Part shown: one piece after another, positions 1 through 21,500 of the stretch
How the letters are laid out: each line of letters opens with the position of its first letter
How positions within the stretch are numbered: the stretch's first letter is position 1
From: Methylobacter sp.
GTDB lineage: Bacteria; Pseudomonadota; Gammaproteobacteria; Methylococcales; Methylomonadaceae
Direction: 5' to 3'
DNA length: 62,697 bases
Assembly (NCBI GenBank): GCA_026399025.1
Contig: JAPLRU010000126.1
Location: 54,686-117,382 of the forward strand
Program-made: the position numbers and the translations under genes
Notes under the pieces: generated by a model
Seen by the model: only the letters and a program-made list of their open reading frames with translations
The model's database searches: none
Told to the model about the DNA's origin: nothing

Positions 1-3000
1 GAGAATTTTCAAGCCGGATGTCGTCTTCAAACAACCACCAGCCATCCAGCAAACCGTAAGTCATCGTCGCAAAAGCCTGGATGTCGGTGGTCTCGTTCAG
101 GAACAGGTAGCCGTTATCCTTCAACAGGGCTTTGACATGGGCCAGCGTTTTGCAAAGATCGCGCGTGGCGTGTATGACATTCGCCGCGACGATGATGTCG
201 AACGACTTGCCAAAAACGCAGTCGGGCGCAATCGTTTTTTCAATATCCAGCACTTCAAAGCTTGCAAACGGATAGTGGGGGCCGTAAGTCCGTCTGCCGT
301 ATTGAATAAAGCCCGCTGAAATATCGGTGTAAAGATAGCTGATGCGATCGCCGAAACGTTGCAGCGCATTCAGCAGCAAGGCCGAAGTGCCGCCCGTGCC
401 TGCGCCTATTTCCAGTATTTTCAATGGCCGGTCAGGAAAACGCGCTGTCTGTATGCTGACCTGCTCCAGCACATTGTTTACCAAAATCCTGTTATAAAAA
501 TCGGCGGTGGCGTTATCCTTGTAGATGCCCTTGACCAACTCGAACGAGGCGTCCGGGAACATCACTTCGGTCGCGTTGAGCTTGCCTTGCAGCACTTCCG
601 GGTAATGCCGGGCGCAAACCCAGATCAGATTCACGAATGCGCCAATCTGGCTAAACTCGCTTAGCAAGCGGTCTTTTGTTTGTTGCAGCTCGGTAAACGG
701 CAGCCGCCATTCCCGACCTGTACCAACAAAATAATCGCCTTGACGTTGCAAATAGCCCGCATCCAGCAGGATATTCAAGAACGCATCCAGCAAGCGGTGG
801 TACTTGGCGTCAATTTGCAATTGGTCGTGCAACTCCTCCCGCAAGTAGCGCTGTCCCGGTATTTTAAAAACACCCATGTTGTGCAGCGTGTCGGCTAACA
901 GCATCGCGCAGAAACCCGGAACTTGGGCGTAAGCGTGCTGGAACGCCTTCAGTTCCGGCGTTTCCGGGGGCAACGCTACCGGGATAAATGCAGTTGGCGC
1001 TATCGTCTTAACTTCGGGCTCGTCTTTAGGCGCAAGCCAATAACGTTCGCCGACGAACGGGTAAGTCGGCAGCGGCACTTTACGGAAAACGCCTTTCGCG
1101 GCGGCGGCATGCTGGTAAAGCAAGCGCCATTCCAGTTCATAGCCTTGCCGGTAAAGATCGGCCAGACTCAGCAAGCTCTCGTCGCGTTCGGTTTCCGTTA
1201 GCTCTAAATCCCGTATTTCGGTCAGCAATCTTGCGCCGAACTGCTTAAGCGCCGCGCCGCGTTGCTGTTCCGGCTCGATCTTTGTCCATTCACTGTCAGG
1301 CTGTGACAGCAAGCCCTTTAAGGCCGCCGCAAGCGCCTGTTTGTCATCTGCGACCAAAGCCACGCGGAAATCGAAATGGCTTCTGCCAAGCAGCAGCGTT
1401 ATTGCAATATCGCGCAATGCATAGGCATCGCCTTCGTTTTCAAGCCAGTCGGCCAGCGCTTCGATTTTTGCCGCAAGATCGATAGCGGTTTTTGCCGACA
1501 GCGGGATCAAATAGGCTTGTTTGTGCTCGGTAGACTCCGCCTGATACGGCGCTTGTTCAATCACGCAATGCGCATTGGTGCCGCTAAAACCGAAAGCACT
1601 GATTGCAGCCTGGAGCGGTTCTTTGTTTGCGTTGTCCCAGTCCTGCGCTTTGGTATTGACGTAGAAAGGCGTATTCGCCAATTGAAAATGCCGGTTTTCT
1701 TTTTGAAAATGCAGCACAGGCGGCAATTGTTTATGCTTTAAGGACAGCAGGACTTTGATCAGCCCCGCGATGCCCGCCGCCGCCAGACTGTGGCCGATTC
1801 CGGTTTTTGCCGAACCGATCGCACAAAACTGTTTGCGCCGGGTATAAGCCTGAAACGTATCGGTCAACGCATCGATCTCAATCGGGTCGCCGAGGCGGGT
1901 GCCGGTGCCGTGCGCTTCAACGTAGCCGATACGCTCCGGGTTAATCCGATAGCGCCGGTAAACCTCCTGCTGCAAAGCCGATTGGGAAGGCGAGCTGGAC
2001 GCGGTAATGCCGTTGGTTTTGCCGTCTTGATTAATGCCGTGCGCCTGAATCACGCCGAAGATATGATCGCCGTCGCGCAACGCATGGTGCAGCGGCTTTA
2101 ACAGCACCGCGCCGACCGCTTCGGCCGGCACAAAGCCGTCGGCGCTGTCGTCGAAGGTTTTACAGCGGCCGTCCGGCGACAACATGCCCGACTTGCCCAG
2201 GATAAGATGGCTTTGCTCGGTGCAAAACAGCGAAACGCCGCCCGCCAGCGCAAGGTCGCAAGTGCCGCTGTTGATGCTTTCGCAGGCCAGATGAATCGCA
2301 ACCAGCGACGACGAGCAAGCGGTATCTATCGACAGGCTGGGGCCTTTGAGGTCGAGAAAATAAGCGATACGAGCCGACAGCATCGCGGCGCTGTTGCCGG
2401 TGCCTTGATAGCTGCTGGTTCCCAACCGGGTAAAAGGCTTCAGGTAATCGCTTTCCCGGCAGCCGACATAAACGCCGCAACGGCTGCCTTTCAGGTTTTC
2501 AGCCGAATATCCGGCATGTTCGAAAGTTCTCCACGCTTCCTGGACAAAAAGGCGCTGTTGCGGGTCCATCCACTCCGCTTCTTTCGGCGAAATGTTAAAA
2601 AACAGCGGATCGAAACGGTCAATATCGTCAACAAAACCGCCCCAGAAGCCTGTACCCTGCCAGCGACCGGGCGGAACGTCATCGATGCAATCACGGCCTT
2701 CCACCAAGTTGCGCCAATATTCGTCGATATTTTTGGCATGAGGAAAGCGGCCCGACATGCCGATGATGGCTATGCCTGCCTGATTACCCACAGGCGAGTG
2801 GGGCGCGGCTGCGAATGCACGCTCTGCAAGCGGTTGAGGCTTTGCCACGGAATGGGATACCGGTTCCTGCGTTACATGTCGTATTTGTTGTTGGATATGC
2901 AGGCTGATTTCGTTAATGCTGGGGAAGTTGAACAATTCGGTGCTGCGCAACTGCACACCAAACGCGGCATTAATTTCCTTGACCACCCTCAGCGAGGTAA

Positions 3001-6000
3001 ACGAATCCACGCCGAAATTGACATAAGCGGCGTTCGGGTCGATTTGATCGGCATCGATCATCAGCACTTGCGCGAATATTTCCCGTACTTGCCGGGTAAG
3101 GCCGTGGTTCGGCATCGGCTTTAGCGCAACATCGGCTATGCTGACCGGCTTTGCCGCCACCGCCTGAGCTTTGTTCGAGGCCACGACAACGTTATAGCCG
3201 CTATCTTCTCCTTCCGGCCCCGACTGCCCGTAAATGTCGACCGAAGTAAAACCCTGCTGCTCAAGCAGCGCCGTCCACATCGCCGAATTCAGCAAAGGCC
3301 CGCCCGGCACTCGCCGGTCTTCGTCCGCAAACGCCCACCAACCGTGCAACAAACCGAAAGTCAGCGAAATAAAATCTTGCGCATGGGTGACTTCATTCAG
3401 GATGATGCTGCCGTCAGTCTTCAGCAGACGGCGTGTATTTTGCAGCGTCCGGTTCATGTCGGCCGTTGCATGCAAAACGTTACAGGCAATAATCAAGTCG
3501 AAACAATGCTCGGCAAAGCCTTGCTCGACGATGTCTTTTTCAATATTGAGCACCCGAAACTCAAGAAATCCGAATTCCGCGCCGAACCTGCTTTTTCCGA
3601 ACTGAGTAAAGCCTGAGGAAATATCGCTGTAAACATAGCTTAAGCGGTCGCCGAAATGGGCAATCGACTTCAACACGCCTTCGGTAGTTCCGCCGGTTCC
3701 GGCGCCGATCTCCAGAATGCGTATTTTTTCGCCGGGTTGGCGCTGACGGTCAAGTTCCGAAATAGCCGCAACCAGCTGCCAGTTCAGCAAGGTGTTGAAG
3801 TAATCGACTACCGGATTGCCCCGGTAAAATCCCTCTACACGCTCCATCGAGCCTCCGGGAAACAGGATGTCGGTCGCCGCGATTTTACCGGTCAGGATGT
3901 CATGCAAGTGGTCAAGGCAGTCCCAAGTCAACCGAATTTGCGCCTTGAGCTCGGGAAAGCGTCGAAGCAATTGGTCGCGCCTGCGCTGAAGATCGGCCCT
4001 ATTCACCGGCGCTAATTTGATTACGCGGTAGCGGCCTGCGCTTTGTTGCAATACGCCCGCTTTCGCCAACATATCCGGCAGCAGCGAAAACAGGCGGCGA
4101 TGTTGCGGCGCAATCCCCAATACGGCTTGCAGACGTTCGGGCTCCAGTTCTTCGCCCAGCGTCCGGCACACACCCCACCCCTGAAAACGGTCTAACAGCA
4201 ACTGGCGGGTAATATCTTCAAGTTCCTCGAATGCGCCGGAAAACCGCCGCCAAGCTACCGGGTTTAACTGTGGTTTAACGCTGTCGGCGGCAACTTCAAA
4301 ATCAGCTTCGAAAACAAAGCAAAAGCCGGGCAATGGAATTCGCTTTCCTTTGCCGGTAACGCGTGACCAAGCGCCGCCATTGACCCACTGTTCGGCGATT
4401 AAGTCCCATGCCTGATTTTGATATAGCGCTGCCGAAATTTTTTGTTGCGCTGTCCGCGCTGCCGCAGTGCCGATAAACAGCCGGGCTATTTGACGCTCAC
4501 CGTTCAGGTAACGCTGCAATTTGGCGACCAACTCCTGCACCGAAGAAGCAACCACGGCCAAGCGCTCTTCCATCTCCTGACGGCCTGTTTGCAAGGTATG
4601 CGCGACATCCGCCAAGTTCAGTTGTTGAATGCCGAAATAGCGGTAGTGCGAGCCTTGCACATAAGCCAAAAAACGCGCCAGATACTGATCCAACTGCGAC
4701 CGGGTTTTTGACGAAAACACCAGCAGGTGTTCCTGCGCAGCAGTATTGTCATCCGAGGCTTGCCGCTCACAGGCGTTATTGTATTGTTCAATGATGAAAT
4801 GAGCCGTCAAACCGCCGTAACCGAAGTTATGAACACCCGCCCGGCGCGGACTTTGATCGCTGCGCGGCTCCCATGCCTGCTTTTGGGCAACCACTGCAAA
4901 AGGCGGCTGATCCTCGCTTTGACTCCAGTTCAGTTCCTTGAAATTAAGCACCGGCGGAATCAGGCCGTTTTTCATTGCCAAGCACACTTTAATCAACGAA
5001 GTGATGCCGGCAGCCGATTCCACATGACCGATATTGCCCTTGGTGCTGCCTATGCCCAGCTTATGATTCTCGCTGTTGCGGAACACTTCCGCATAAGCTT
5101 TAAGTTCGGCTTTATCGGACAATTCCGTGCCTATGCCCTGGCCTTCGATATAGTCAATATCGTCCGGCTTGAGCCCCGCTTCCTGCAACGCCGCTCGAAT
5201 CACCTTGACATGGGCTTTGGGATCGGGCGCGGTCAAAAATACCGTTTTGCCGCTTTGGGTAACCGCGCAGCCTTTAATCACGCCATAAATATAATCGCCG
5301 TCTTTTTCGGCCTCCGCCAAGGGTTTCAGCAACGCTGTCGCCACACCCTCGCCGATCAGGTAACCGCCCGCGTTTGCATCGAAAGAACAAACCCGTTGTT
5401 CATTGGTTAACAAACCCATTTTGCGGTTGGCGATATGAGAAAAAGAGTCCTGTACCACGGTAACGCCGCCGACCAACGCAAGTTTGATTTCTCCGCGCAA
5501 TAAAGCGTGACAGGCCAGATGCAAGGCGCTGGAAGATGCCGCGCAAGCGGTATCGACGGTCAGACTGTTGCCTTTCCAGTCGAAAAAATAGGAAACCCGG
5601 TTAGCCAGCATCGAATGGGTATTGCCGATATTGCTGTAAGGGCCGAAATCCTTACCGGCTTTCATTAATTGCAGCAGGTTTTCATTGCGCTGCACGCCCA
5701 AATAAACGCCGACCTCTTCGCCCTTAAGTTGCTCCATCGAATAGCCCGCGTTTTCGAGAGTTTCCCAGGTGGATTGCAAGACCAATTTCTGTTGCGGGTC
5801 CATTTGCAGCGCTTCCAGCGGCGAAATGCCGAAAAATAACGGATCGAACTTATCCAACTTGTCGAGAAAGCCGCCGTAGCAACAGTCGGTCAGGTTGCCT
5901 TCGGCTTGCGGGTCGCCGAAAATGGCGCGCCAATCCCAGCGGTCTTCGGGTATTTCGGTCAGCGAATTTTTCTCATTGAACAGGTTTTCCCACAGTTCGA

Positions 6001-6586
6001 TGATGTTATCGGCTCCCGGAAATTGGCCCGCCGCACCGATGATAGCGATGTCCATAGCGCGGGCGGGTGCGGTTTGCGACCTGTCCGGCGGGGAGAGGGA
6101 AACAGGCGCAGCGGCGGCAAAAATATTAGGCATCGGCTGCGGCGGTTGATAGGGAGCGCTTTCTTGGTCAAGGTCGAAAGCATCCAGTAACAACGAACCT
6201 GAAATATCGGGAGTGGCAAACACCGCATCCACAGCAAGCGGTTGAACAAAATTTGCGGTTGTTTCCACACGGCTTGCAGACGGAGCTTGTGCTTCAACCT
6301 GGACAATGCCGAACAATGCTTCAAAATCCGCCCGATAACGGGCCTGAAAATGCGTTTGCAACGCCGCCACCGTGGTGTGCTCCAGGAAAGTCGAAGCATC
6401 CGGGCGTACAAAAGGGAACATTTGGCTTAAGCGGTTCGCCAACTGGGTTAAGGTGATCGAGTCGAAACCGTAAGCGCTCAGGTTTTCCTTGGGGTCCACC
6501 CGCTGCTGTTCCATGCCCAGAACAGCCGCGACCGCCTGTATCAAGGACGCTTCTATCTGTGACAACATGTTCTCTCCGCTGGTCAT
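1..6586 (-). CDS. Trans-AT type polyketide synthase, second protein of the operon (3' end outside window)
   Basis: Modular polyketide synthase reading leftward off the window edge; 2195 residues are visible. Domains in order: ACP5 (about 8-80, phosphopantetheine Ser43 in GFDS), KS5 (178-600), methyltransferase MT2 (780-1115, SAM motif LEIGAGTGG near 961), ACP6 (Ser1195 in GVDS), KS6 (1267-1680, Cys1424 in DTACSS, intact HGTGT), and MT3 (SAM motif near 2061), which is cut by the window edge. KS5 keeps Cys348 and His521 (NIGH), but the HGTGT histidine is Gln483 (QGIGT), so it should accept and pass on a chain without condensing. No AT, KR or DH is seen in this part. The start ATG overlaps the stop of the upstream gene (ATGA) and follows a strong AGGAGG site, implying translational coupling. 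Because the protein opens with an ACP, it completes the KS4-oxygenase module that ends the previous protein. Domain calls are firm; C- versus O-methylation by MT2 and MT3 cannot be decided here. Confidence 0.93.
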   Translation of the reverse strand, partial: MTSGENMLSQIEASLIQAVAAVLGMEQQRVDPKENLSAYGFDSITLTQLANRLSQMFPFVRPDASTFLEHTTVAALQTHFQARYRADFEALFGIVQVEAQAPSASRVETTANFVQPLAVDAVFATPDISGSLLLDAFDLDQESAPYQPPQPMPNIFAAAAPVSLSPPDRSQTAPARAMDIAIIGAAGQFPGADNIIELWENLFNEKNSLTEIPEDRWDWRAIFGDPQAEGNLTDCCYGGFLDKLDKFDPLFFGISPLEALQMDPQQKLVLQSTWETLENAGYSMEQLKGEEVGVYLGVQRNENLLQLMKAGKDFGPYSNIGNTHSMLANRVSYFFDWKGNSLTVDTACAASSSALHLACHALLRGEIKLALVGGVTVVQDSFSHIANRKMGLLTNEQRVCSFDANAGGYLIGEGVATALLKPLAEAEKDGDYIYGVIKGCAVTQSGKTVFLTAPDPKAHVKVIRAALQEAGLKPDDIDYIEGQGIGTELSDKAELKAYAEVFRNSENHKLGIGSTKGNIGHVESAAGITSLIKVCLAMKNGLIPPVLNFKELNWSQSEDQPPFAVVAQKQAWEPRSDQSPRRAGVHNFGYGGLTAHFIIEQYNNACERQASDDNTAAQEHLLVFSSKTRSQLDQYLARFLAYVQGSHYRYFGIQQLNLADVAHTLQTGRQEMEERLAVVASSVQELVAKLQRYLNGERQIARLFIGTAAARTAQQKISAALYQNQAWDLIAEQWVNGGAWSRVTGKGKRIPLPGFCFVFEADFEVAADSVKPQLNPVAWRRFSGAFEELEDITRQLLLDRFQGWGVCRTLGEELEPERLQAVLGIAPQHRRLFSLLPDMLAKAGVLQQSAGRYRVIKLAPVNRADLQRRRDQLLRRFPELKAQIRLTWDCLDHLHDILTGKIAATDILFPGGSMERVEGFYRGNPVVDYFNTLLNWQLVAAISELDRQRQPGEKIRILEIGAGTGGTTEGVLKSIAHFGDRLSYVYSDISSGFTQFGKSRFGAEFGFLEFRVLNIEKDIVEQGFAEHCFDLIIACNVLHATADMNRTLQNTRRLLKTDGSIILNEVTHAQDFISLTFGLLHGWWAFADEDRRVPGGPLLNSAMWTALLEQQGFTSVDIYGQSGPEGEDSGYNVVVASNKAQAVAAKPVSIADVALKPMPNHGLTRQVREIFAQVLMIDADQIDPNAAYVNFGVDSFTSLRVVKEINAAFGVQLRSTELFNFPSINEISLHIQQQIRHVTQEPVSHSVAKPQPLAERAFAAAPHSPVGNQAGIAIIGMSGRFPHAKNIDEYWRNLVEGRDCIDDVPPGRWQGTGFWGGFVDDIDRFDPLFFNISPKEAEWMDPQQRLFVQEAWRTFEHAGYSAENLKGSRCGVYVGCRESDYLKPFTRLGTSSYQGTGNSAAMLSARIAYFLDLKGPSLSIDTACSSSLVAIHLACESINSGTCDLALAGGVSLFCTEQSHLILGKSGMLSPDGRCKTFDDSADGFVPAEAVGAVLLKPLHHALRDGDHIFGVIQAHGINQDGKTNGITASSSPSQSALQQEVYRRYRINPERIGYVEAHGTGTRLGDPIEIDALTDTFQAYTRRKQFCAIGSAKTGIGHSLAAAGIAGLIKVLLSLKHKQLPPVLHFQKENRHFQLANTPFYVNTKAQDWDNANKEPLQAAISAFGFSGTNAHCVIEQAPYQAESTEHKQAYLIPLSAKTAIDLAAKIEALADWLENEGDAYALRDIAITLLLGRSHFDFRVALVADDKQALAAALKGLLSQPDSEWTKIEPEQQRGAALKQFGARLLTEIRDLELTETERDESLLSLADLYRQGYELEWRLLYQHAAAAKGVFRKVPLPTYPFVGERYWLAPKDEPEVKTIAPTAFIPVALPPETPELKAFQHAYAQVPGFCAMLLADTLHNMGVFKIPGQRYLREELHDQLQIDAKYHRLLDAFLNILLDAGYLQRQGDYFVGTGREWRLPFTELQQTKDRLLSEFSQIGAFVNLIWVCARHYPEVLQGKLNATEVMFPDASFELVKGIYKDNATADFYNRILVNNVLEQVSIQTARFPDRPLKILEIGAGTGGTSALLLNALQRFGDRISYLYTDISAGFIQYGRRTYGPHYPFASFEVLDIEKTIAPDCVFGKSFDIIVAANVIHATRDLCKTLAHVKALLKDNGYLFLNETTDIQAFATMTYGLLDGWWLFEDDIRLENS

Positions 6587-9500
6587 ACTATTTCCTCCTG
6601 AGTGGATGGGTGCGTCGGTTTAACGGCTTCCTTTCCTAGGGCTTTGTTCATATCGGCGGCTGAAATCTGGCCGAGCTTTACCATGGTTTCCAGGTTTTTC
6701 GCTCCCAGTTTCGCCAGCAACACGTATTTCATCGCCTCAAGCCGGGGATCGTTTTTGTTGATGTACAGTTTCTGCTGGATTATTTCCAAAAAGCGTTCCG
6801 CCTCCGCCCAGCGATTCGGCCCGACCAGCCGGTAAACCGCAGGAATCGCAGGCATATTGATCAACTTCCAATACAGCTTCCAATCGTTCACCGGGTTCGG
6901 AAACGCGCCGATCTGTTCGGCCAGCCACATGTTTTGCTGCGCCGAATCGATACTGGGAAACAGTTGCCCGCGTTTGCTTTCTTTATGCAGATCGCTGTGC
7001 ATGACCAGGCGCATGGTATCCGCATCGGGTAATGCGCATTCTTTAGATAACACTTTAGCGAACCAGCGCGCCTCCAGTTCCAAGGTCGGAACCACGCTCA
7101 GCGAGGCATGTTTGCGGCCGATAAAGCACAGGTTGCGATGCTCCGGCGGAAACTGATGCTTGTATAACTGATCGATCTTGACGGACTCGGGCAGGAACGG
7201 GAAAGCGGGCTGTTCATAGCCGGTGCAGTCGACAATAATGTCGATGTGCTCGAAGCTGCCGTCCTGAAACTCGCAGCCGTTTTCCGACAAAATCCGCAGT
7301 TCCGGCTTGAGCTGAATCTTGCCTTCGCTGACGGTGCGCGGAAAATCGCAGCTGACCAGCAGGATGCTGTCTTTGACCGGAAACTCGGGCATCAGGCCGC
7401 TGTTTTCCATCTCCGCCATATGTTGCGGAATCGACGCCCGCCATTCGTTCAAAACATCGGCTGGACGTTGCCGATTGATGATCAACCGTTTGACCGAAGA
7501 AATGGAACCGTCATTGGTGGTAAACCCGAACATGCGCGGAATAACCATTTTTTTCGAGCGCAGGCTCATGGTCACTTTTTTCGCGGTTTTGCTTGCATCG
7601 ACCGAAATATCCATGCCGCTGACGCCGTTACCGATAACCAACACGCGTTTGCCCCGGAAAATGTCCGGCGCATGGTAATTGGCCGCATGTAAATACTCGC
7701 CCTGGAAACGCTCCATGCCGGGATAGTTAACCGTCTTGGGTTGCCAGAAATTGCCTATGCAAATGCTGACCGCGTCAAAGCTTTGCGTATGTACGCCGCC
7801 ATCGGCCTTGCGTAGCGTCAAAGACCACTTGTCCCCGTCCTGAACCAGCTTTTCCAAGCCCGTATTTAACTGAATATGCGACCTGAATTGGAAGTGGTCG
7901 ACATAGTCGTTGAAATACCGGTTTAACTCCTCGACTCCCGGAAAAATCGACATCGATTCCGGCGGCGGGAAATCCGAATACAGCGAAGTGAACTTGGAGG
8001 TTTGCAAACGGGTAGCCTGATAAGGCCCGCCCCGATGATCGTCTCGGAAACACCATATTCCGCCGATGCGGTCGGTTTTTTCGAATACCGTGGGCGTATG
8101 CCCGGCTTCGAGCAAGCATTTGGCAGCCGTCAAACCCGCAGGCCCGGCGCCGATGACCGCAACCGACAGCGTAGCGGGGCTGCGCTTTTCAGCCGGGTAA
8201 GATTCAACCACAGCGGGTTTCGAAGCACCCATGTCTTCGGCAATAGGCGTTTGCTTAGCCGGAATCCAGTAACGTTCCTTTTGGAAAGGATAGGTCGGCA
8301 AAGACATGCGCTGCAAGGGCTGACTTGATCCGCGCCGGGCATATAAATCCTGCCAGTCTATTTTATGACCGGCTACCCAGGCTTGCGCCAGCTCCTGAAT
8401 AGCCCCATATCGGGCCTGCGTTTGCGTTTCGGCCTGCACCCGCCCTTGAAAGACGTCCGCAGCGCCGGTCTGTTCAAACATCCACCGGCTTAATTTGTCG
8501 ATCAGCTCTCGCTGCGTCGAGAACACGATTGCCAGCCGTTCCGTCATAGCCTCGCGCCCTTGCTGTAGGGTGTAGCTGAGGTTTTCCATATTGACCGGCT
8601 GCATCTCCAGAAAATGCACATAGCTGTTGGCGTAAGCCCGCAGGCTTTCAGCGTTCTTGGCCGACAGCGGAAATACCAGCGGTCCGTGTGCGGATGCCGA
8701 TTGCAGAGAGGCCTTGGGATATTCTTCGACAATCAAGTGATGATTGGTTCCTCCCGCGCCGAATGAACTGAGTCCGGCGCGTCTGGGATAGCGTTTTCCG
8801 TCGACGCTGACTTGCCGCCATTCGGCAAGTTCCTGCTGTACATAAAAAGGCGTATCGCCAAAAGCAATATAAGGATTCAGGGTGTTGGCATGTAATGAAG
8901 GCACCAACACGCCATGCTGCATTTGCAGCAGCACCTTGGTCAAGCCCGCCATACCCGCCGCCGATTCCAAATGGCCGACATTGGATTTGACCGAACCGAT
9001 CGCGCACTGTTGCCGCGTTTGCACCCCCAGCTCCCGATAGGCTTGGGTCAAGGCGGCAATTTCAATCGGATCGCCTATCGATGTCCCGGTTCCATGCGCT
9101 TCCACATAATTAATCGTGTTGGGGTCGATGTTCGCATTGCGCAATGCGCTGCCGATCACTTTGGCCTGGGCATTGGGATTGGGTACCGTGTAACCGCTGG
9201 TTTTGCCGCCCGAGTTCATCGCCGAAGCCTTGATTACGCCGTAAATATGATCGCCATCCATTTCAGCTTGCGCCAGCGGCTTTAACAACACCGCACCGAC
9301 GCCCTCACCGTCGACAAAACCGTCCGCATCGGCGCCGAAACTCTTGCACCGGCTGTCTTGGGTTAGCATGGTCGCCGCGCACAGGCGCAAATAATGCTTG
9401 GGATGCAGAATCAAATTGATGCCGCCTGCAATCGCCAGATCGCATTCGCCTCCGGTCAAGCTTTCGTAGGCGAGATGCACCGCAGTTAAGGAACTGGAAC

Positions 9501-12500
9501 AGGCGGTATCGACCGCCATGCTGGGGCCGTCGAAATCGCACAAATAAGAAATCCGGTTCGCCACCGACCAAAACGATGAATGAGCGGCCACCGGATCGTC
9601 GGACGACCAACGTTCGCCGGCCAGCGATTCGTAGTCGGCATGCATCAGGCCGACAAACACGCCGACTTTCTTGTTTTGCTTAGCAAGCGCCTTGCGGGTA
9701 TAGCCTGCATCTTCCAGAGCGGTCCAACTGCTCTCGATAAACAGCCGCTCTTGGGGGTCCATCAATCTCGCTTCGTTCGGAGGAATCGAGAAAAACAGCG
9801 GGTCGAATTTATCCACGTCATCGATAAAACCGCCCCACTTGCTGTAAATCGTACCGGGCTCGTGTTTGTTCTCGGAATAATAGGTTTTCCAGTCCCAACG
9901 CTCTTTCGGCACTTCGCGGATGCAGTTTTTGCCTTGTTTGAGGTTTTGCCAGAATTGGTCCAAGTCCTCGGCCATCGGATATTTACCGCTGAGACCGATA
10001 ATGGCTATATCGCCGATGGAGGTTGTCCGACTCAGAGAAGCTTGTACCGATTTAGCGGATTTTACTTCGGGTAAAGTCGCGGCCAGGTCGAGCGCATCGA
10101 CGCCGACAAGAGTCTCCAGCGTTTCCCGATGATGCTCGATGAAATATTGTTTTAGGCCTTCGGTGGTATTGTACTGGTACAGCGTCACCACCGGCAGTTT
10201 GCCCAGATGGCGTTCGAAAGCCTGGAGTATGCTGGTGATGTCCAGCGAATCCATGCCGTAAATTTCAAAGCTAGCTTGAGGGTCGATGCTGGTTTTCCTG
10301 ATTTTCAGGGCCTTGGCGAGTACCGTTTTAACGAAATCCTCCACTTTCTCGTCGAAACCGGAACCGCTAAGCGCTGCGGCTGTTTCCACCGCAATTTCGG
10401 AATGGTGCGCCGCCGAACGACCATACAGTTCGATGCCCAGCTCATCTAAATGCTCGCGGCTCACTTTCATCGGCACCACTTGTTCGAACGGACTCGCCAT
10501 GATCCGCTCTATGGCTTCCATGCCTTCTTCGGGCGCTATCGAATAGACGCCCCGTGCGGCCAGTTTTTGATTGTAAGCCTCGCTGGAAACCACGCCGACC
10601 GTACCCCAGTACCCCCAATTGAGGATTTTCACCGGGTACGGAGCGGTGTTTTGTAAATACCGGGCAAAGGCATCCTTGAACGTGCAGGCGGCGGCGTAAT
10701 TGCTCTGCCCCGGATAGCAGGTGAATGATTCGCCCGAAGAGAAAAACAGGAAAAAATCCAGCGCCTCGCCGTCCAACGCTTTATACAAATTGACGCTGCC
10801 TTGAACCTTGGGCGCCAAAGCCTCAAGGAAAGTGGCCTCATCCATATTGGGCAGGGATTTATCCTTTAATACCAAAGCCGAATGAATAACGCCGTGTATG
10901 TCTCCAAAACGTTCCCTGACCTGGGCAATCGCTGTTCTCAACGAGAATAAATCTCCGGCATCGGCCTGTATATACAGCGCCTTGCCGCCTTTGTCTGCGA
11001 TTACGCCGATTTTGTCCTGCACTTCGGAATTAGGCGCGCTGCGGCCGAGCCAGACAATCCGGGCTTTTACTTTTTCCGCGAGATAACAGCTAAACGCAAA
11101 GCCTATGCCGCCCGCACCGCCCAAGATCAGGTAGACGCCCTGATGACGGAACACGGTTTGCGGTGCCGGCGGAATCGCCAGCGCGTCCAACGTCAGTACA
11201 AAGCGTTGGCCTGAGCGCAACGCCACTTCCCGGCCTTTATCGGTAAAAGGTTCGGCCTGGATTTGCTTAGCCAGTTCAGCCATGTCATCGGTTTTGCAAA
11301 AATCCACGCAACTGACCTGCAATTGCGAGTATTCCTTAAGCGCCGTTTTGGCCACGCCGAAAATACTGCCGACCAAAGGATTCGTTCGCTGCCGAGGATC
11401 GACGGCATGGGCGCTTTCGGTCAACACGCACAGCTGAATCCGGTTATGCAGCCATTGCTGCTTGATCAGTGCCTGAATCAGTCTGAGCAGCGAAAGAACG
11501 CCCAGTTGCCGGCTGCGTTGCAATTGTCCGTCCGGCAGCGACGCATCGGGATCATCCTGAATCCCGCCCATAAAATAGACCAGCTCGGGACACGGAAACT
11601 CACCCGCCTCCAAGCATTGTAAAATCGATGGCGAGTTCGAGTAATCGGCTTGCCAACAACGCTCATCCAGCTTTCCCGTGCGCGTCGCTAACTTAATTTC
11701 CCAAACGCTATCGGCAGCGTGTAAACGCTTCAAGTTATCCTGCAAGCCGAGCGCAGTCTGTTGCTCGACAGAAACGAACAATACATTTCTACCGGCTTGA
11801 ACCGGCTTGCTTTCGGTCAACGCTTTAGCTTCCCATCGAGGTCTATAAAAGAAGTCGCCGAACGCATCTTTTTGCGCTTGGTAAAACACATCGCGCAAGC
11901 GCACACAAATCTGCCCCTGCTCGTTTAACAACGAAAGATGGAAACGCATCGGGCCGACGCTTTGCAGATGGACGTAGCCGGTCTCGGACAACGGCGCCAA
12001 AAACTCCGCTTTTTCTATCGAATGCGGAAGCAGGCCGCTGATCGTCTTGCCGTCGGCCCGATTCAATATGAAAGCCGCGCCCAGTTGCAAACAGCCGTCC
12101 AACAACGCAGGAGAAAAAGCGTAGGCCTGACATTGCCGGTGCTCGGGATTCAAGGCCAATTCCGCCAAGGCCTCGTTACCGCCGAGATAAATCCGCTGTA
12201 CGCACCGGAAGCCGCTGCCGTGATGAACGCCGATGTTTTGCAGTTGCGAGTAAAGCTTGTCGCCGGAAAGTTGAGACAAGCCCGCCAGCCGCAATGCCTC
12301 GATCCTGTCCATCATAGACGCAACAGCAGACGGATTTGCGAACGCTAACTCGCCGCTGCCGTGAACGTCGCCGTCGCTACTTTGCACGGTAAAAGAATAC
12401 CGGCCCTGGTCTTGGCGAAGTTCGATTTTGACCTGTGTTGGCCGTTCGACTATCAACGCTTTCGACCAAACGATACGGGACAGTTCGAACGGCCGATCTA

Positions 12501-15500
12501 CCGACAAAGCAAACGCGGCGCGCGCCATTTCCAAGTAAACAACGCCGGGCAGGACGCCTTTGCCGCCGACCTGATGGTGTTGCAACAACCAATCGGAGGC
12601 TGCGAAAGTTTTTTCATAAGTCAGCCCCTGTTTCAGGCTTAAGCCCGGATCGATCCTGTCCAGTAACGGATGAAGAACGGTGTTCACGACATCGCTATGA
12701 GCTTCGTCAATAGCCGTCTGCGGAATCCATAAACGCTCCCGCTCGAAAGGATAGGTCGGCATCGATAGACGCCGCCAACCTTCGCCCACCGGGTTTAACA
12801 CGCTCCAGTCGGGGGTGTAGCCCTGTTCGTACAGTTTCGCCAGTTGCTCCAGCTGTTCTTTGTACGCCTTGTCCGCAGCCTGCCCGCTGTTGGCGATTTG
12901 CCGCAACACCTGCTGCCCCTGTTTTTTCAGGTCCCGGCTTGCGCTGTTGCGTTCCGGCTCAAGCTGCGTCGAACTCAGGTAAGCGATCAATTCCTGTTTG
13001 TTTTGCACCGAAAAAGCCGCACGGTAGGCAAAATGACTGCGTCCGATTTGCAAGGTATAAGCGATGTCGCCGAGTTTGGCCTCATTGCCCTCTTGCGTTA
13101 ACCACTCGAGCAAATCCACGCATTTTTGGCCGAACGCAGTGGCCGTTTTCGCCGAAATCGGAATCAGGAAACAAGGCCGGGACGGCAACGGGCTAAGCAA
13201 AGAAAACACAGGCGCTTCGTCAATCACCAGATGGCAATTGGTGCCGCTGATGCCGAACGAGCTGACGGCCGCCCGGCGGACGCCGCCGTTGGCCACGGTC
13301 CAGTCTTGCAGCTCGCGGTTGACGTAGAACGGACTGTCCTGGAAATTGATATATTCATTCGTATGCTCGCAGTGCAGCGAAGGCGCGATTTTTCGATTCT
13401 TCATCGACAGCAGCACTTTGATTACGCTGGAAACACCGGCGGCATACGCGGTATGGCCGATATTGGTTTTTACCGAACCTATCGGGCAAAACTGTTTTTT
13501 ATCGGTAAATTTGCGAAAAGCATTGGTCAAGGCTTCGACTTCTATCGGATCGCCCAATTTGGTGCCGGTGCCGTGGGTTTCGATGTAGCCGATGCTATCT
13601 GCGGGAATGTCGTATTGTTGGTAAACCGAAACTTCCAAGTCGGCTTGAGAAACCGAGCTGGGCGCGGTCATGCCGTTGGTTTTGCCGTCCTGGTTAACGC
13701 CGATGCCGCGAATCACGCCGTAAATGTGATCGCCGTCGGCCAGCGCTTTAGCCAAAGGTTTCAGCAATATCGCCGCGGATGCTTCTCCGGGGACGAAACC
13801 GTTGGCGTCGTTATCGAAAGCCCGGCATTGCCCGGTAGCGGACAACATGCCCGACTTGCCGGTCAGCTTATAAAACAACGGCGTGGTGCAGATATGAATG
13901 CCGCCGGCCAGCGCCATGTCGCTTTCGCCCGCGTTAAGACTCTGGCAAGCGAGGTTAATGGCGACCAGCGAAGACGAACAGGCGGTGTTAATCGCAATGC
14001 TGGGGCCTTTCAGGTTCAAAAAATACGAAATTCGCGCCGCCATCACCGAAGGTTCGTTGCCTGCAAACGAAAAGCCTTCAATCGCCGCGCCTTGTTCATG
14101 ATGCATTTTGGTCTGATAGTCGCCTTTGGTCGCACCGGCAAAAACCCCCAGTTTGAGGCCTGACAGCGCTACGTCCGAATATCCGGCATCTTCCAAGGTA
14201 CGCCAACAATCTTCCAAAAAAATACGTTGCTGCGGGTCGCTAAGCTCGCCTTCCTTGCCTGAAATCTGGAAAAACAGCGAGTCGAAGCGGTCGATGTCTT
14301 TCAGGAAACCGCCCCATTTGGAATAGGTCTTGTCTCTTTTACCGGGATCGGGATCGTAATGCTCGTCAATGCTCCAGCGGTCCTGCGGGATTTCGGTCAC
14401 GCAGTTTTTTCCCTGTTCCAGGTTGCGCCAGTATTCATCAACGCCATCGGCCATCGGGAAGCGGCCCGCCATGCCGATGATGGCTATGTTCATGCCCTTG
14501 TCGCTCACTTCACCGACACTAGACGACGTGGACTCGTTAGCCGCTGCCGGTGTTTGCGCGTTCTTCTTCAAGTCTTCGGCGAGAATTTTTTGCAGATGAA
14601 AACCCTGGAACGATAAGGCCTCGTTGCCGTGCCGGTCGACCAGCATCAAATCCAGGGTGATATGGTCGGCTTTAACGGAAGCGGCTTTAACCACGCCGTA
14701 ATACAGGTCGTCATGCAATTCACGGAAGACTTTTATCTTGTCGAACAAGACCGGAATGAAAAAGTTTTTCCGGTCGCCGGACAGGAAGCTGGCGAAATAA
14801 AGCCCTGTGGCAAAGAGACCGTCGACAATAGAAGGCTCCAGCACAAAGCGGTTTTTCAATAACTCGCCTTCAGGGCTTCGCGTCAGTTGGCTTACTGCGG
14901 TTTGCCCTTGGATACGGATTTCTTGAATAGTTTGGTAGGAAGAGCCGACTTTTAAAATAGCGTCGGGCGTATAGATTTCAGCGGGATGAACTTTTATTTC
15001 AAAGTTGTCCCAAACCTGCCGGAAGTCCTGATTAACCGACGCCGCCTCGGTAATCCGCTTAAACCTGCCGTCGACGCTGACCTTATAAGCGCCCGGCTGA
15101 CCGGCTTTTTTGCTCTGAATCGCAAAGCGGTCGCCTTTGGCATTGGGCGTTAATTTCAACTGACAATCCAACTCGGTACCGGGGAAGGTAATCATCGGGA
15201 ATTGCAGATTGAAGTTTTCCACTTGCAATCCGGCGGTAAATCCCAGCAATTTTCGCGTTCCGATGTAGAGCATTTCCAGGTAGGCATCGGACGGCATGAT
15301 GTATTGGCCGTAAATCACATGATCGCGGATACAGTTGTTATCTTCGACGCTAATCCGGTAGTGCTGAACCACTTCTTCGCCCTGCAACCAGTCGCCTTGT
15401 TGTTGAAAACCGTAATGCAGGCAATGCGGGCCTATCGCGCTAGGCTCGGCAATAGGGTTTTGCGTTTGCATGACTGGCGTTTCGGTCGGCGTCTTTGCGG

Positions 15501-18500
15501 GCAAACCGATGTCGTCGCCGTAGGCCTCGGCTATATACGCAGCCAACGCGGCAACGGTGGTGTAATCGAACAACGCGGTTTTACTCAGGAACACGGACAG
15601 GGTTTGATTAAGCTCGTTAATCAATTCAATGCCGGTAATCGAGTCGATACCGTATTCGGAAAAAGGCCGGTCCTCGTCAATCTCCTGCGCCGAAATGCCC
15701 GAGGCGGTTTCCACGCTTTTTAAAACGATGTCCAGCAGTCGTTGTTCAAGGTCTTCATTATTAGGCGGCGCGGCAGTTATATCGTTCACTTCGAACTCTA
15801 TATTATTATGCGCCACGGCAGTTGCCTGACGGGTTGCCGCAGCTTTCTCCCCGACCGCTGCGATGTCGTCGCCGTATTGTTCGGCAATATACGCCGCCAG
15901 CGCGGCAACCGTGGTGTAATCGAACAGCGCCGTTTTACTCAGGAATACCGACAAGGTTTGATTAAGCTCGTTGATCAGCTCGATGCCGGTAATCGAATCG
16001 ATGCCGTATTCGGAGAAAGGCCGGTCCTCGTCAATTTCTTGAGCCGCAATGCCCGAGGCGCTTTCCACGCTTTTTAATACGATGTCCAGCAGTCGTTGTT
16101 CAAGGTCTTCGTCGTGCTTATACGCCATGTGCTTGGTCTCGTTTTGAAACGTGCAATTTGCCTCGTTGACCGGTTTCACGCCGGCATCGGGGACAGGTTC
16201 TATATTTTCGTCGGGAGCTTGATCGGTAGATTGGGCTACGACCGCCGATTTTTCGGCCACCAGCACATGCTGCGCCAAATCCAGGCCGACTGTCGCCGAC
16301 GGTCCCAGTATTTCGACCTGACGAAAGCCGACTTCCCGGAACAACCGGGTCCAGGTTTCCGGCGTCAGCAGCGGACTGTCCTGAATCCGGTAGTGCTCAT
16401 CCTCGTACAGCCACCAACCATCGAGCAAGCCGAAAGTCAGGGTTAACAAATCCTGGGCCTTGGTCATTTCGTTCAAAACCAGCCAGCCATGGGTTTTCAG
16501 CAGCAAGCGGACGTTGCTCAAGGTGGTTTTGATAGCAGGCGTCGCATGCAGCACGTTGGTGGCGACAATCAACTCGAAGCTGTCCGGCTGAAGCTTCTGG
16601 GCGGGCAGGTCTTTGGTTATATCCAGCAACTGGAAAGTCACGAACGGATAACGTTCGGCAAAGTGTTTTCTGCCGTGCATCAGGAAGAAGCTGGAAACAT
16701 CGCTATAAACATATTCCAGTTTATTGCCGTAAGCCGCAATCGCTTGCAAAACGCCGGCGGAAGTGCCGCCGGTGCCTGCGCCGATTTCCAGAATGCGTAT
16801 TTTTTCACCGTCCTTTAGGGTTTTGACGCGCTCTTCGATAAAAGCCAAGATGCTATGCGCCGCCAGCGCATTGAAGTAGTCGGCTACCGGATTGTTTTTA
16901 TAAATACCCTCCACTTTCGCCATTGAGGAATTCGGAAACATGACTTGCGTGGGCTGGATCTGTTCCCGGAATAATTGCGGGTAATGTTCGACGCAATGGG
17001 TCAATAGCACCAGATGCGCCCGAATTTCAGGATACTGTTCGGCAAGCAGCGTTTGCTGCCGGTTGGCATCGACCGGCGCGGTACCGGTCGGCTCGGAACC
17101 TGCCAACAGCCGCCGGGCCGCATCGTAAAACCGGGTAAAGCGCGGCGGTATGGTCGCGGACGGCTCGGCATTCAGAATGCCCATGTCCCGGAAAGCGGCA
17201 GCAAGCAATTGATGGGCGAAGCGTTGCAGCGCCAGATAGCCGTCCTGGAAGCGGAAAAGATCGGCCTGCACCAGCGTAGACGGATTCAACACGGCGCTCA
17301 GTTTTTCTAACGAGGCGGAAAGCGCCTGTGTTTGTTCTTCATGCTGTTTGGCCTGAGTCACAAACATTCTGTGTTGCAAGTGGAGAGTCGCTTTTACTGC
17401 CACGACTTGTTCCTTACGCTGGGTCAGTACGCGTTTGATGACTTCCATGCCTTCATCGGGCCGAATCGAGCTCATGCCCTGATTGCCCATGCGCCGCTGA
17501 TAATCCTCGGTCGCGACAATACCGACCGTACCCCAATAACCCCAGTTGATGACCTGCACCGGATAGGGCCGACGCTGATTCAGGTAACGGGCAAAAGCGT
17601 CCTGAAAAGTGCCTCCGGCGACGTAATTGCCTTGTCCGGGATTGCCGATGACCGACAGGATCGACGAGAAGAACAGGATGAAATCGAGGCTTTGCCCGTC
17701 GAGCGCATAGCAAAGGTTGACAGCGGCTTGCGCCTTGGTGTCGTACACGCTGCGGAAAGCGGCTTCGTCCATATTTTCCAACGCCTTATCCTGCAAAATA
17801 ACGGCAGAGTTAAACACGCCGTGAATCTCGCCGAAACGCGCTTTGCCCTGGGCAATGGCTGCTTGTGTTTGTACCAGGGAAGTCAGGTCGGTAGGCAAAT
17901 AAAGGACTTCGCCGCCCTTTTTTTCAATATCGGCAATTTGCGCCAAGCGCATTGCATCCAAGGCTTTCCTGCCCAGCAGGATTAGACGCGCTTGCACGTT
18001 TTCGGCAAGGTATTCGCTGAGCTGTTGACCGACGCCGCCAAGCCCCCCGGCAATCAGGTATACCCCATGTTGGCGCAAAGGCGTCTTTGCAACAGCGGCG
18101 AGCCGCGCGGGAATCATGTGCCGGATATAGCGCTGTCCTTGATGCAAAGCGACTTCCTCGGCCCCCGCATGGCGCGGTTCGGCAAGGATAGTGGTCAAGC
18201 TGACTTGGCCCCGTAGCAGTTCGGCCGGATTCAGCGACAAGCGGTTAATGTTCCAGTGCGGATATTCCCTGATCAAGGTTTTAGTCAAGCCCGCTAAACC
18301 CGCGACCCAAGGAAAAATCTCGACGCCGGCGTGAATATCGTGGATCTGGGAAGTCAGCACCGTAAGCCATAAATGTCTTTCGGCGTGAACACTGCGCGCC
18401 AAAGCTTTCACCAGCCGGTGCAAGGCATGAACGCCAAACGCTTGTATCGCTTCCAGCTGTTGCGGATGTTGCGGGTCTGGACTACGGCTGATCAAGCCTG

Positions 18501-21500
18501 CCAAAAAGTAAATCCGGTGTATGTCCGGGAAAGCGTTTACCGCGAAATCATCCTCGCGCACCGGGATGACTCGGTCTTGGGCATAGTGTTGCTGCAATGC
18601 TTCGACAAGTTGCATAGCCGCTTGCGCATCGTCCTGCGGCGGCAAAAAAACCAGTATGGTCTGCGAAGAAACACCGGCCTTTGCAGGCACCGGGCCGGGA
18701 GCATCAAGCAGCCATTGCGGTATGTAACAAAACTCGGCTAAAGGATCTTTGGCTTGTTGGAACACAGCATTTTTAAATTGCACATAAACCTTGCCGGTTT
18801 CATCCAGCAAGTAAACGTCCGCACGTTGCGCATCGATTTTCCGTGCATAAACAATCATGTTCGTTGTTAACGGATGATAGGCGGCAACCTCCTCAACCAT
18901 GAACGGAAGTTGCGGCGCCGCATCCTTATCCCCCAAGGCAAGCGCTGTTTGTAAGGCCGCATCCATCAGCGCCGGATGTTGCCGGTAACCGGAAAAATCC
19001 CGGCTTAAGCTGTCCGGCAAGGTTAAAAAAGCTACAGCTTCGCGCTCGTTTTTGTGCAACCGGGTAATGCACTGGAAAGCTTGGCCGTACTGTATGCCCG
19101 CTTCGCTAAAACCGGCGTACAGAATTTGCTTGTCCATCATTTCCGGGCAGCGCGCCTGAATGTCTTGCCATGAAAACGACTCCGGAGAAGTCGTTGCTAA
19201 CGGGCCGAATTTGCCGTAAGCATGTTTTTGGGGCGGCCTGCCGGGAACCACGCTTTGCACCTCGAAAGCCATGCTGTCGCCTTGCTTTGTTAACAGCACG
19301 CAAATTTCGGTCTGCGTCTGCGATGCAGGCAAGGCCAAGGCTTCCTGCCAAACCATGTCGACAATTTTGCGCGGAGCCTGATCGATTTGCGCGGCTGCGG
19401 CCCAAGCCAGTTCCAGATAAGCCACGCCCGGCAACACCGGCTGTGCATTGACCCGGTGATCTTTGAACAGCCAATGCGACCGGGACAGCGTCTTTTGAAA
19501 AGCCATGCCCGACTCCAGCGTAAAACTCCGCGCCGAATCCACCCGATCCAGTAAAGGATGCACAGCCGCAGTTGCCGACTGCTGTTCTGCTTCCGGCAAC
19601 CAGTAGCGTTGTTTCGCATAAGCATAACCCGGCAAGGAAATTCTTCGCGGTCCGGCGGAGGCATTACCCGATTCGGCATACAAGCCACGCCAATCGACAT
19701 CCGCGCCCTGCGCCCACAATTGGCCCAGTTGCGCTAACTGCTTTTGCTCAAGCAACACCTTAATATAAGCCGCGCCCGCCTCCCCTTCCGGCGGCAGTAA
19801 GCGGTTCTTTTTGTTGGTTTCGGTGTTGCCTTGAAAGCAGTCGACACCTTGAGTTTCATTGCCCGCCGAAAGCTGTTCCAGCGCTTGTACAAGCTCTCGC
19901 AAGTCGCTTACCACAAACGCCAGCCGTTGCTCCATCGCTTCCCGGCCGACTTGCAGGGTATAGGCGATATTATGAAGACTCAGTTGTTCCCGGCGCGGGC
20001 GCAAAAAATCAAGCAACTTGTGTACGGACTCAAGCAATCGGTCCTTGTTCTTGGCCGAAAGCACAATCAAACAAGCGCCTGATTCGGGCAAACCGGTTTC
20101 AACCGGAGCAAGGTATTCTTCCAAAATCACATGGGCATTGGAGCCGCCGACGCCGAATGAACTGACACCGGCCCGGCGCGGATATTCGGCGTTCCACTCG
20201 GCCAGTTGCTGTTGCACATAAAAAGGCGTTTTGGCAAACGAAATCCGGGGATTTAGCGGCGTCGAATGCAGCGACGGTACCAAAGTCCGGTATTTCATCT
20301 GCAACAGCACTTTAATCAAACCGGAAATACCGGCTGCGGCAATCAAATGGCCTATATTGGATTTTACCGAACCTATCGCGCAAAACCCGGTTGCGTCGGT
20401 GTAGTGTTGAAAAGCCTGAGTCAGTCCTTCGATTTCGATAGGGTCGCCCAGGGTAGTGCCGGTGCCGTGAGTTTCGACATAGCTGATCGTGCGCGGCGAA
20501 ACGCCCGCATTGTTAAGCGCTGTCAACACCAGTCGGGCTTGCGCACGGGGGCTCGGCACCGTGTAGCCGCCGGTTCTGCCGCCGCTGTTGATTGCGGTGC
20601 CGCGAATCACGCCGTAAATGCAATCGCGGTCTTTAATCGCCTGCGATAAAGGCTTCAATACAATGGCAGCGACGCCTTCCGCATCGACAAAGCCGCCCTT
20701 GCCTTCACCGAACGGGTGGCAATAATTTTCGCCGGACAGCATATTTTTCTGGCAGAACTGGACGATACGGCTGGGGTGCAAGGTAAGACTGACGCCCCCG
20801 GCAATAGCCATTTCGCATTCTTTTCGTTGCAGACTTTGCACGGCCAAATGAACAGAGCTCAGCGACGACGAACAAGCCGTATCGACGGTCATGCTCGGGC
20901 CCTGGAAATCGCAAAAATAGGAAACCCGGTTGGCGATGTCGTAACTGTCGGTATCCGGGCATTGACTGCTATTTTCGGCCCACAGCCCATAGGTGTTGGT
21001 AGTTGCGCCGACGAAAACGCCGGTATTTTTGGGCAGGCTGAGCCGGGTATAACCGGCATCTTCGATACTGCTCCAGGCGGCTTGCAGAAAAATCCGCTGT
21101 TGCGGGTCCATCAATTGCGCCTGTTTCGGCGTGATATTAAAAAACAGCGGGTCGAATTGGTCGAAGCCTTCCAAAAAACCGCCCCATTTAGTGTAGCTTT
21201 TGCCTTTTTGTTTTCCGGCGGCATCGTAGTAATCCCGATAATCCCATCGTTCTTCCGGCACTTGGCTAATGCAGTTGTTGCCTTGTTTTAAGTTTTCCCA
21301 TAGCGCTTCAAGGTCGGGGGATTGCGGGAAGCGGCCGCTACAGCCGATGATTGCAATAGGCTCCGGCGTTACTGCCGAAGAATCGCCGGCTTCGAATGCC
21401 GAAGCCGAGGTGGGCTGGGACATCGGGGACGGCTTAACTGCCGCTGCCGTGGTTTCGACAACTTCCAGCACCGGTAACGCTAAAATCTCGCACAATGTTG

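Follow-up and report, generated by a model that had tools for sequence, protein, structure and literature searches.

The C-terminal end of the polyketide synthase PKS_A, KS4-FMO, and the start of the following protein PKS_B together form, judging by their sequence, an FMO-type oxidation bimodule, KS4-Ox and ACP4-KS0-CMT-ACP5, spread over two proteins. This bimodule may well oxygenate a beta-keto chain carried on the ACP, with alpha-hydroxylation as the likeliest reaction, and this reading is put forward tentatively. Domain content and order, the exchange that marks the KS0, the likeness to FMO-type over Baeyer-Villiger monooxygenase (BVMO)-type enzymes and the conservation were read from the sequence; from there we infer the substrate, reaction and product of the bimodule. 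Oxidation modules that are built into the line and have their ACP on the following protein are ordinary and already known. New is a polyketide-fed, probably C-methylating variant of the FMO-type, KS0-linked kind. The following features were located in the window, which is the whole stretch of 62,697 nucleotides analysed:

25569..6583, minus strand, PKS_A, 6328 aa
10138..14478, minus strand, upstream module 3, KS3-DH-KR-ACP, the chain donor, with HxxxGxxxxP of the DH and Ser/Tyr of the KR intact
8719..9999, minus strand, KS4, ketosynthase of the oxidation module, residues 5191-5617, from the pooled-HMM domain call and active-site alignment
8266..8301, minus strand, LPTYPFQKERYW, end of the KS flanking region, in the KS4-FMO linker
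6640..8163, minus strand, FMO-type flavin monooxygenase (Ox) domain, PKS_A residues 5803-6310
8134..8151, minus strand, GAGPAG, first nucleotide-binding motif (FAD), residue 5807
7675..7707, minus strand, FQGEYLHAANY, fingerprint FxGxxxHxxxY, residue 5955
7615..7632, minus strand, GNGVSG, second nucleotide-binding motif (NADPH), residue 5980
6583..6586, minus strand, stop of PKS_A and start of PKS_B overlapping as ATGA, with AGGAGG just upstream
6344..6523, minus strand, ACP4, carrier protein of the oxidation module, PKS_B residues 22-81, first PKS_B domain
4781..6040, minus strand, KS5 (KS0), Gln instead of the His of HGTG (YIEGQGIGT), active-site Cys retained
5138..5140, minus strand, KS5 Gln codon in place of the HGTG His, coordinates computed
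3224..3982, minus strand, methyltransferase (MT) domain in the half-module with the KS0, classed as C-type from its likeness and the motifs GAGTGG, NVLHAT and LNEV
2888..3067, minus strand, ACP5, closing the bimodule, from the domain call

The window corresponds to positions 54686-117382 of contig C79 in a genome of 5.2 Mb. The PKS cluster was located on the minus strand and comprised about 60 kb (contig C79 20301-80254), with the gene order PKS_A, PKS_B, PKS_C, a PhyH protein, PKS_D, a MupA-family monooxygenase, a KS0-MT-ACP-ACP protein and a KS-ACP-TE protein. Housekeeping genes were found further left and a P-type ATPase at the right. The Pfam hits of the PKS proteins in the cluster included no acyltransferase domain (AT, PF00698), and the four PF00698 matches of the genome were all on other contigs. 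With its AT-less modules, the cluster is classified as a trans-AT PKS. Adenylation (A, AMP-binding) domains were absent from the Pfam hits of PKS_A, PKS_B (window part), PKS_C, PKS_D, x1199 and x1004. From the ATGA overlap on, the window part of PKS_B had the order ACP-KS-CMT-ACP-KS-CMT. Runs of N border the window on both sides, with 5 N at contig C79 54681-54685 and 14 N at 117383-117396. Treating PKS_B and PKS_C as two genes was rejected: the break inside a C-methyltransferase (C-MT) coincides with the 5-N scaffold gap just outside the window, and the ortholog of Candidatus Methylobacter oryzae (M. oryzae) was a single open frame across both stretches examined. The split was taken for an artefact. 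The cluster is also present in the cultivable M. oryzae strain KRF1, from the same genus as the window. Two extra DH-like domains were present in PKS_A at unusual places, window 21805-22548 and 14593-15384; the first-module one lacked HxxxGxxxxP and the other, after a tandem ACP, carried HVIYGQYIMP. A gene for a PhyH-type 2-oxoglutarate oxygenase (PF05721, E=1.8e-29; NCBIfam matches under cut-off) was located between PKS_C and PKS_D at L008 8253-9059, equal to contig C79 45253-46059.

An FMO-like domain with the motifs GAGPAG, FQGEYLHAANY and GNGVSG had been proposed for residues 5800-6260 of PKS_A in a preliminary description. All three motifs were found in the positions given there, and the domain matched Pfam PF00743 (FMO-like) with E=1.3e-73 and 248.7 bits against a cut-off of 22. 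Its place was correct, its extent somewhat longer. Class B FMOs have two GxGxxG motifs with FxGxxxH between them. The pattern FxGxxxHxxxY, here FQGEYLHAANY, we take to be the fingerprint of the FMO type. With the Pfam cut-off passed and the three motifs present, the domain is assigned to the class B FMOs. The best match among solved structures was 8odw (E=2e-82), with 9e-66 for the ancestral FMO2 and 6e-16 for PAMO. The entry 8odw is LbmA Ox-ACP of the lobatamide PKS from Gynuella sunshinyii, crystallised with ethyl glycinate, an amine, and shares 31% identity with the window domain. An AF2 model of the domain (pLDDT 82.4, pTM 0.83) had 8odw in first rank among the 50 matches listed in a structure comparison. 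BVMO structures did not occur in this list, an absence that carries no weight. The window domain is accordingly classed by likeness as FMO type (LbmA-Ox like) and not as type I Baeyer-Villiger type. The earlier suggestion of an integrated PKS oxidation module was borne out by a trans-AT PKS module whose closest solved relative sits in the lobatamide PKS. A grouping with amine N-oxygenases unrelated to PKS was not observed, the nearest solved relative being a PKS domain, though crystallised with an amine.

The connection to both neighbours was also as proposed. The FMO followed KS4 after a linker of about 185 aa, in which no DH was found by Pfam and pooled-HMM domain calls. In this linker, LPTYPFQKERYW matches LPTYPFx5W, which is described as a named fusion site (PMC11260071). 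PKS_A ended 18 residues after the FMO with no ACP behind it, and the N-terminal domain of PKS_B was an ACP, the genes overlapping by the TGA of PKS_A and the ATG of PKS_B. With Cys, HGTG His and NVGH His intact, KS4 is elongating by sequence. KS5 is probably non-elongating (KS0), because the His of its HGTG motif is replaced by Gln. The motifs GAGTGG, NVLHAT and LNEV of the bimodule MT are presumably those of C-type enzymes. In a quick tree, whose very long branches allow only a separation of the C-type group from oxime MTs, this MT grouped with C-type MTs and four oxime-locus MTs stood apart with a support of 97. The methyltransferase after KS5 therefore looks C-type.

The FMO would, in the proposed mechanism, act on a chain that KS4 has extended by a C2 unit and left as a beta-keto chain on ACP4. 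Using FAD, NADPH and O2, it would oxygenate the ACP4-bound chain with the backbone neither cut nor inserted into; its most likely target would be the alpha carbon, which would be hydroxylated. KS5, being non-elongating, would then transfer the oxidised chain onto ACP5. There the same alpha carbon would be open to the C-methyltransferase, and an alpha-hydroxy-alpha-methyl unit would result. It is very unlikely that the FMO is catalytically idle and that the bimodule does no more than hand on the chain and C-methylate it, since the FAD, NADPH and FMO motifs were intact and the domain was kept in three other genomes, at the loci L019, L020 and L024, with 72-90% identity. Between the window and the M. 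oryzae ortholog, the FMO had a dN/dS of 0.10, KS5 one of 0.098 and the CMT one of 0.16; the value of 0.10 also speaks against an idle domain and places the FMO under purifying selection.

Relatives of the FMO were collected by a profile scan of genome contigs with the FMO alignment, which gave 562 stretches; the best 80 of 106 relatives were kept. At E<=1e-40, the FMO was present in 2/23 genomes of the genus scan and 5/61 of the whole scan, the own genome included in both. The class scan gave 3/369, own genome counted, and the phylum scan 1/398, which was the own genome. The scan of the family Enterobacteriaceae gave 2/392, both free-standing FMOs; the stretches examined contained neither a KS nor an ACP nor any further PKS domain. 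OocK was looked for by the class, phylum, Enterobacteriaceae-family and contig scans and was not found. L019, L020 and L024 showed KS-FMO and then ACP-KS0-CMT, the order of the window. In the FMO tree of 33 rows, of which 32 were different and which holds neither OocK nor SbnP, the window FMO, L019, L020 and M. oryzae (L015, L024) formed a group of their own (100/100). The M. oryzae FMO rows were identical (genome G010, record NZ_RYFG02000120). The tree did not settle where this group branches with respect to L021/L022, L010/L023 and several of the free-standing FMOs.

The closest FMOs outside this group, with 41-43% identity, came from L010 (Photobacterium sp. GJ3), L023 (Hahella sp. CCB-MM4) and L021 (a betaproteobacterial MAG). 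Like the window, these loci are polyketide-fed and hold KS-FMO-ACP-KS0; unlike it, they carry a KR in place of the C-MT, L023 has an additional alpha/beta hydrolase domain, and in L010/L023 the FMO stands at the start of the second protein. The domain order was FMO-ACP-ACP-KS0-DH-KR-ACP in L010/L023; the FMO was followed by KR-ACP-ACP-KS0-DH in L011 and by KR-ACP-KS0 in L021. Because a KR with intact Ser and Tyr shares the bimodule in L010/L023, L011 and L021, the sequences suggest that the ketone survives the FMO step. Frame changes of the PKS genes inside a KS next to the FMO were seen in the Photobacterium and Ensifer plasmid records, at L010 17409-17484 and L011 10798-11128. One protein of L109 (6224-11716; genome G133, a small genome of 1.7 Mb) combined a luciferase-like monooxygenase, KS0, FMO, ACP and thioesterase, a fusion of two oxygenases at an assembly line's end. 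Among the plasmid records matched by the L010 FMO at E<=1e-60, 45/58 were from Escherichia; in the matches listed, the FMO was about 31% identical and mostly annotated beside a SemiSWEET transporter.

Seven aminoacyl-type FMO rows formed one group without the window FMO (97/97), to which they showed 32-35% identity, and together with L011, L029 and L100 a group of ten rows (100/100). An A domain was found in five of the seven loci (L013, L025, L026, L028 and L031), L012 and L027 being counted as aminoacyl-type by likeness to L013. This grouping bears on amine oxidation, that is N-hydroxylation or oxime formation in the style of lobatamide and necroxime. The LbmA study reportedly dealt with the oxime-type oxidation bimodule of the lobatamide PKS. 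The amine in the crystals of the closest solved relative points in this direction. The order of the LbmA-type bimodule, a KS followed directly by Ox, ACP and KS0, was found in the window. An FMO-type domain behind a KS, followed by ACP, KS0 and MT, also occurs in L013 and L028; in L028, the necroxime locus, KS-Ox precedes ACP-KS0-MT and a DH-like stretch intervenes. In both loci an amino acid is loaded through A-PCP and the MT belongs to a different group, whereas the window FMO follows KS-DH-KR-ACP, with A domains absent from the Pfam hits of the cluster PKS proteins, and the window MT stands apart from the oxime MTs in the quick, long-branched tree. Neither A-PCP amino-acid loading nor an MT of the oxime-locus group was found in the window, and amine oxidation appears highly improbable.

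The KS downstream of the FMO was compared among 93 aligned KS domains, some of them near copies and a few taken twice from loci that overlap, and His to Gln in HGTG was found in 17 of them. All 15 readable KSs directly downstream of an FMO-type domain had the exchange, versus 2/78 other KSs, namely the x1199 KS and the L100 KS, itself fused to an FMO. The tally (Fisher 1.7e-15) is inflated by related rows, which stand for about eight cluster types, L015 and L024 being one genome, and it draws on loci gathered with patterns from FMO-type rows; the FMO-type loci L022, L029 and L100, with no readable downstream KS, were left uncounted. In a careful tree of 52 rows, from which L027 as a near copy of L013 was left out, 14/15 of these KS0s, KS5 included, formed one clade (100/97). 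The twelve KSs that carried the label of an Ox fusion were scattered in the same tree with five changes; the label is rough, as it includes the BVMO-type L112 and omits L021, and the L023 KS, which is on the protein before its FMO, was labelled 'other'. Because the KS0s form one clade while the Ox-fused KSs scatter, FMO-ACP-KS0 seems to have been inherited as a unit, with an exchangeable KS in front of it.

The preliminary description had also suggested, from known modules that put oxygen into polyketide chains, that this line may make an ester, carbonate or otherwise oxidised backbone. The integrated oxidation stands, but an ester or carbonate is not favoured, given the FMO type and the lack of both an inactive DH (DH*) and a normal downstream KS. 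A Baeyer-Villiger module would turn the ACP4-bound beta-keto chain into a malonyl ester, to be kept in the backbone or cleaved. This was the first hypothesis and lost ground once the second Ox of lobatamide-like clusters proved to be BVMO-type with a normal KS next. Such clusters of Rhizobium lusitanum (L012/L111) and Agrobacterium vitis (L013/L112) each had two differing oxidation domains. The first was FMO-type in a module KS-FMO-ACP-KS0, in L013 with an A domain before it, and the second lay further on (L111 15208-20865, L112 20252-35146). In L111, the second domain matched PAMO with 4e-52 and 8odw only with 2.7e-15, and it was 23% identical to the window FMO over a 357-column alignment. 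It is assigned to the type I BVMO-like domains and, by position only, was taken for the LbmC-Ox counterpart. The KS after the BVMO-type domain kept the HGTG His in 2/2 clusters; as the loci were gathered with two peptide patterns drawn from FMO-type rows, other kinds of oxidation domain are under-sampled and BVMO-type ones would be missed.

Oocydin OocK, sesbanimide SbnP and lobatamide LbmC-Ox share with the window a flavin oxygenase that is part of a trans-AT module divided between proteins. For oocydin and sesbanimide, the oxygen-insertion modules are described as KS-DH*, MOX and ACP-KS on separate proteins (PMC9600693), and the split of the window module resembles them (PMC8262917, PMC9600693). 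The acidic alpha carbon of a malonyl ester would also suit the following C-MT, and OocK and SbnP, both outside the comparison, may be relatives. By description, however, the OocK and SbnP modules hold DH* and a normal KS, whereas in the window Pfam and domain calls of the linker found no DH* after KS4 and the next KS is the KS0 with Gln. The window sequence is FMO-type and not BVMO-type as the second Ox of L111, and the relatives with an intact KR in the bimodule likewise disagree with insertion, so that oxygen insertion is considered unlikely. If the distinction holds, an FMO-type domain with a KS0 next would signify oxygenation with the backbone kept, and a BVMO-type domain with a normal KS next oxygen insertion. 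Such a sequence rule would correct structure predictions for orphan clusters, the Ox-ACP-KS0 block would be on offer for PKS engineering, and the cluster would point to a candidate oxidised metabolite from methanotrophs.

Alpha-hydroxylation followed by C-methylation is favoured because the bimodule has no DH*, a KS0 comes next, the ketone is seemingly retained, no amine is expected and the MT looks C-type. An amine is not expected because the FMO is fed by KS3-DH-KR-ACP and the Pfam analysis of the cluster PKS proteins gave no A domain. Several points weigh against alpha-hydroxylation. The characterised alpha-hydroxylases MupA (mupirocin) and OocM (oocydin) are described as luciferase-like enzymes acting in trans (PMC10953402); they belong to another family, and the comparison offers no alpha-hydroxylating class B FMO as a precedent. 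In addition, an amine was present in the crystals of the closest solved relative, a later C-methylation would give a less usual quaternary centre, and the in-cis FMOs of spliceostatin and of SdlR, the latter with a class B FMO domain, are reported as epoxidases (PMC7619045).

An on-line epoxidase would act on a chain alkene, which module 3 with its intact DH and KR motifs can leave. Besides those reports, L029 comes from Xanthomonas cannabis, reported as a spliceostatin-producing species (PMC7930024), and its KS-FMO stands just after an ECH/tandem-ACP branch. The spliceostatin FMO is called class A (PMC7619045), however, so that L029 may not be this domain; the window domain is class B. The module 2 DH lacks HxxxGxxxxP by pattern, so a diene is not assured, and epoxidation leaves the C-MT without explanation. 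Epoxidation is regarded as quite unlikely.

The alpha-hydroxylation proposed for the FMO has a counterpart in the MupA/OocM bimodule. Both link a monooxygenase to a following KS0 and act on an ACP-bound beta-keto substrate, which for the window is presumed; they differ in the oxygenase, luciferase-like in trans versus an in-cis PF00743 FMO. The order of monooxygenase and then KS0 was found in the window, and a MupA/OocM-like oxygenase was not found at the FMO site. A wider version is rather doubtful: in-cis FMO alpha-hydroxylation and C-methylation on one carbon would give a tertiary alcohol, FMO-ACP-KS0 would be an exchangeable block that evolved between amine and carbon oxidation as the front KS was swapped, and a second, MupA-type alpha-hydroxylation and methylation step would follow near the end of the line. 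At the other end of the cluster from the FMO, the MupA-family protein x368, a luciferase-like monooxygenase (TIGR04020, 404.7 bits, cut-off 244.45), was followed by the KS0-MT-ACP-ACP protein, whose MT may be of the O- or the C-type. The two genes were located outside the window at L007 3360-8073, equal to contig C79 23360-28073, and look like a separate alpha-hydroxylation bimodule near the line's end. Several methyltransferase families matched the MT of x1199, including an O-methyltransferase one.
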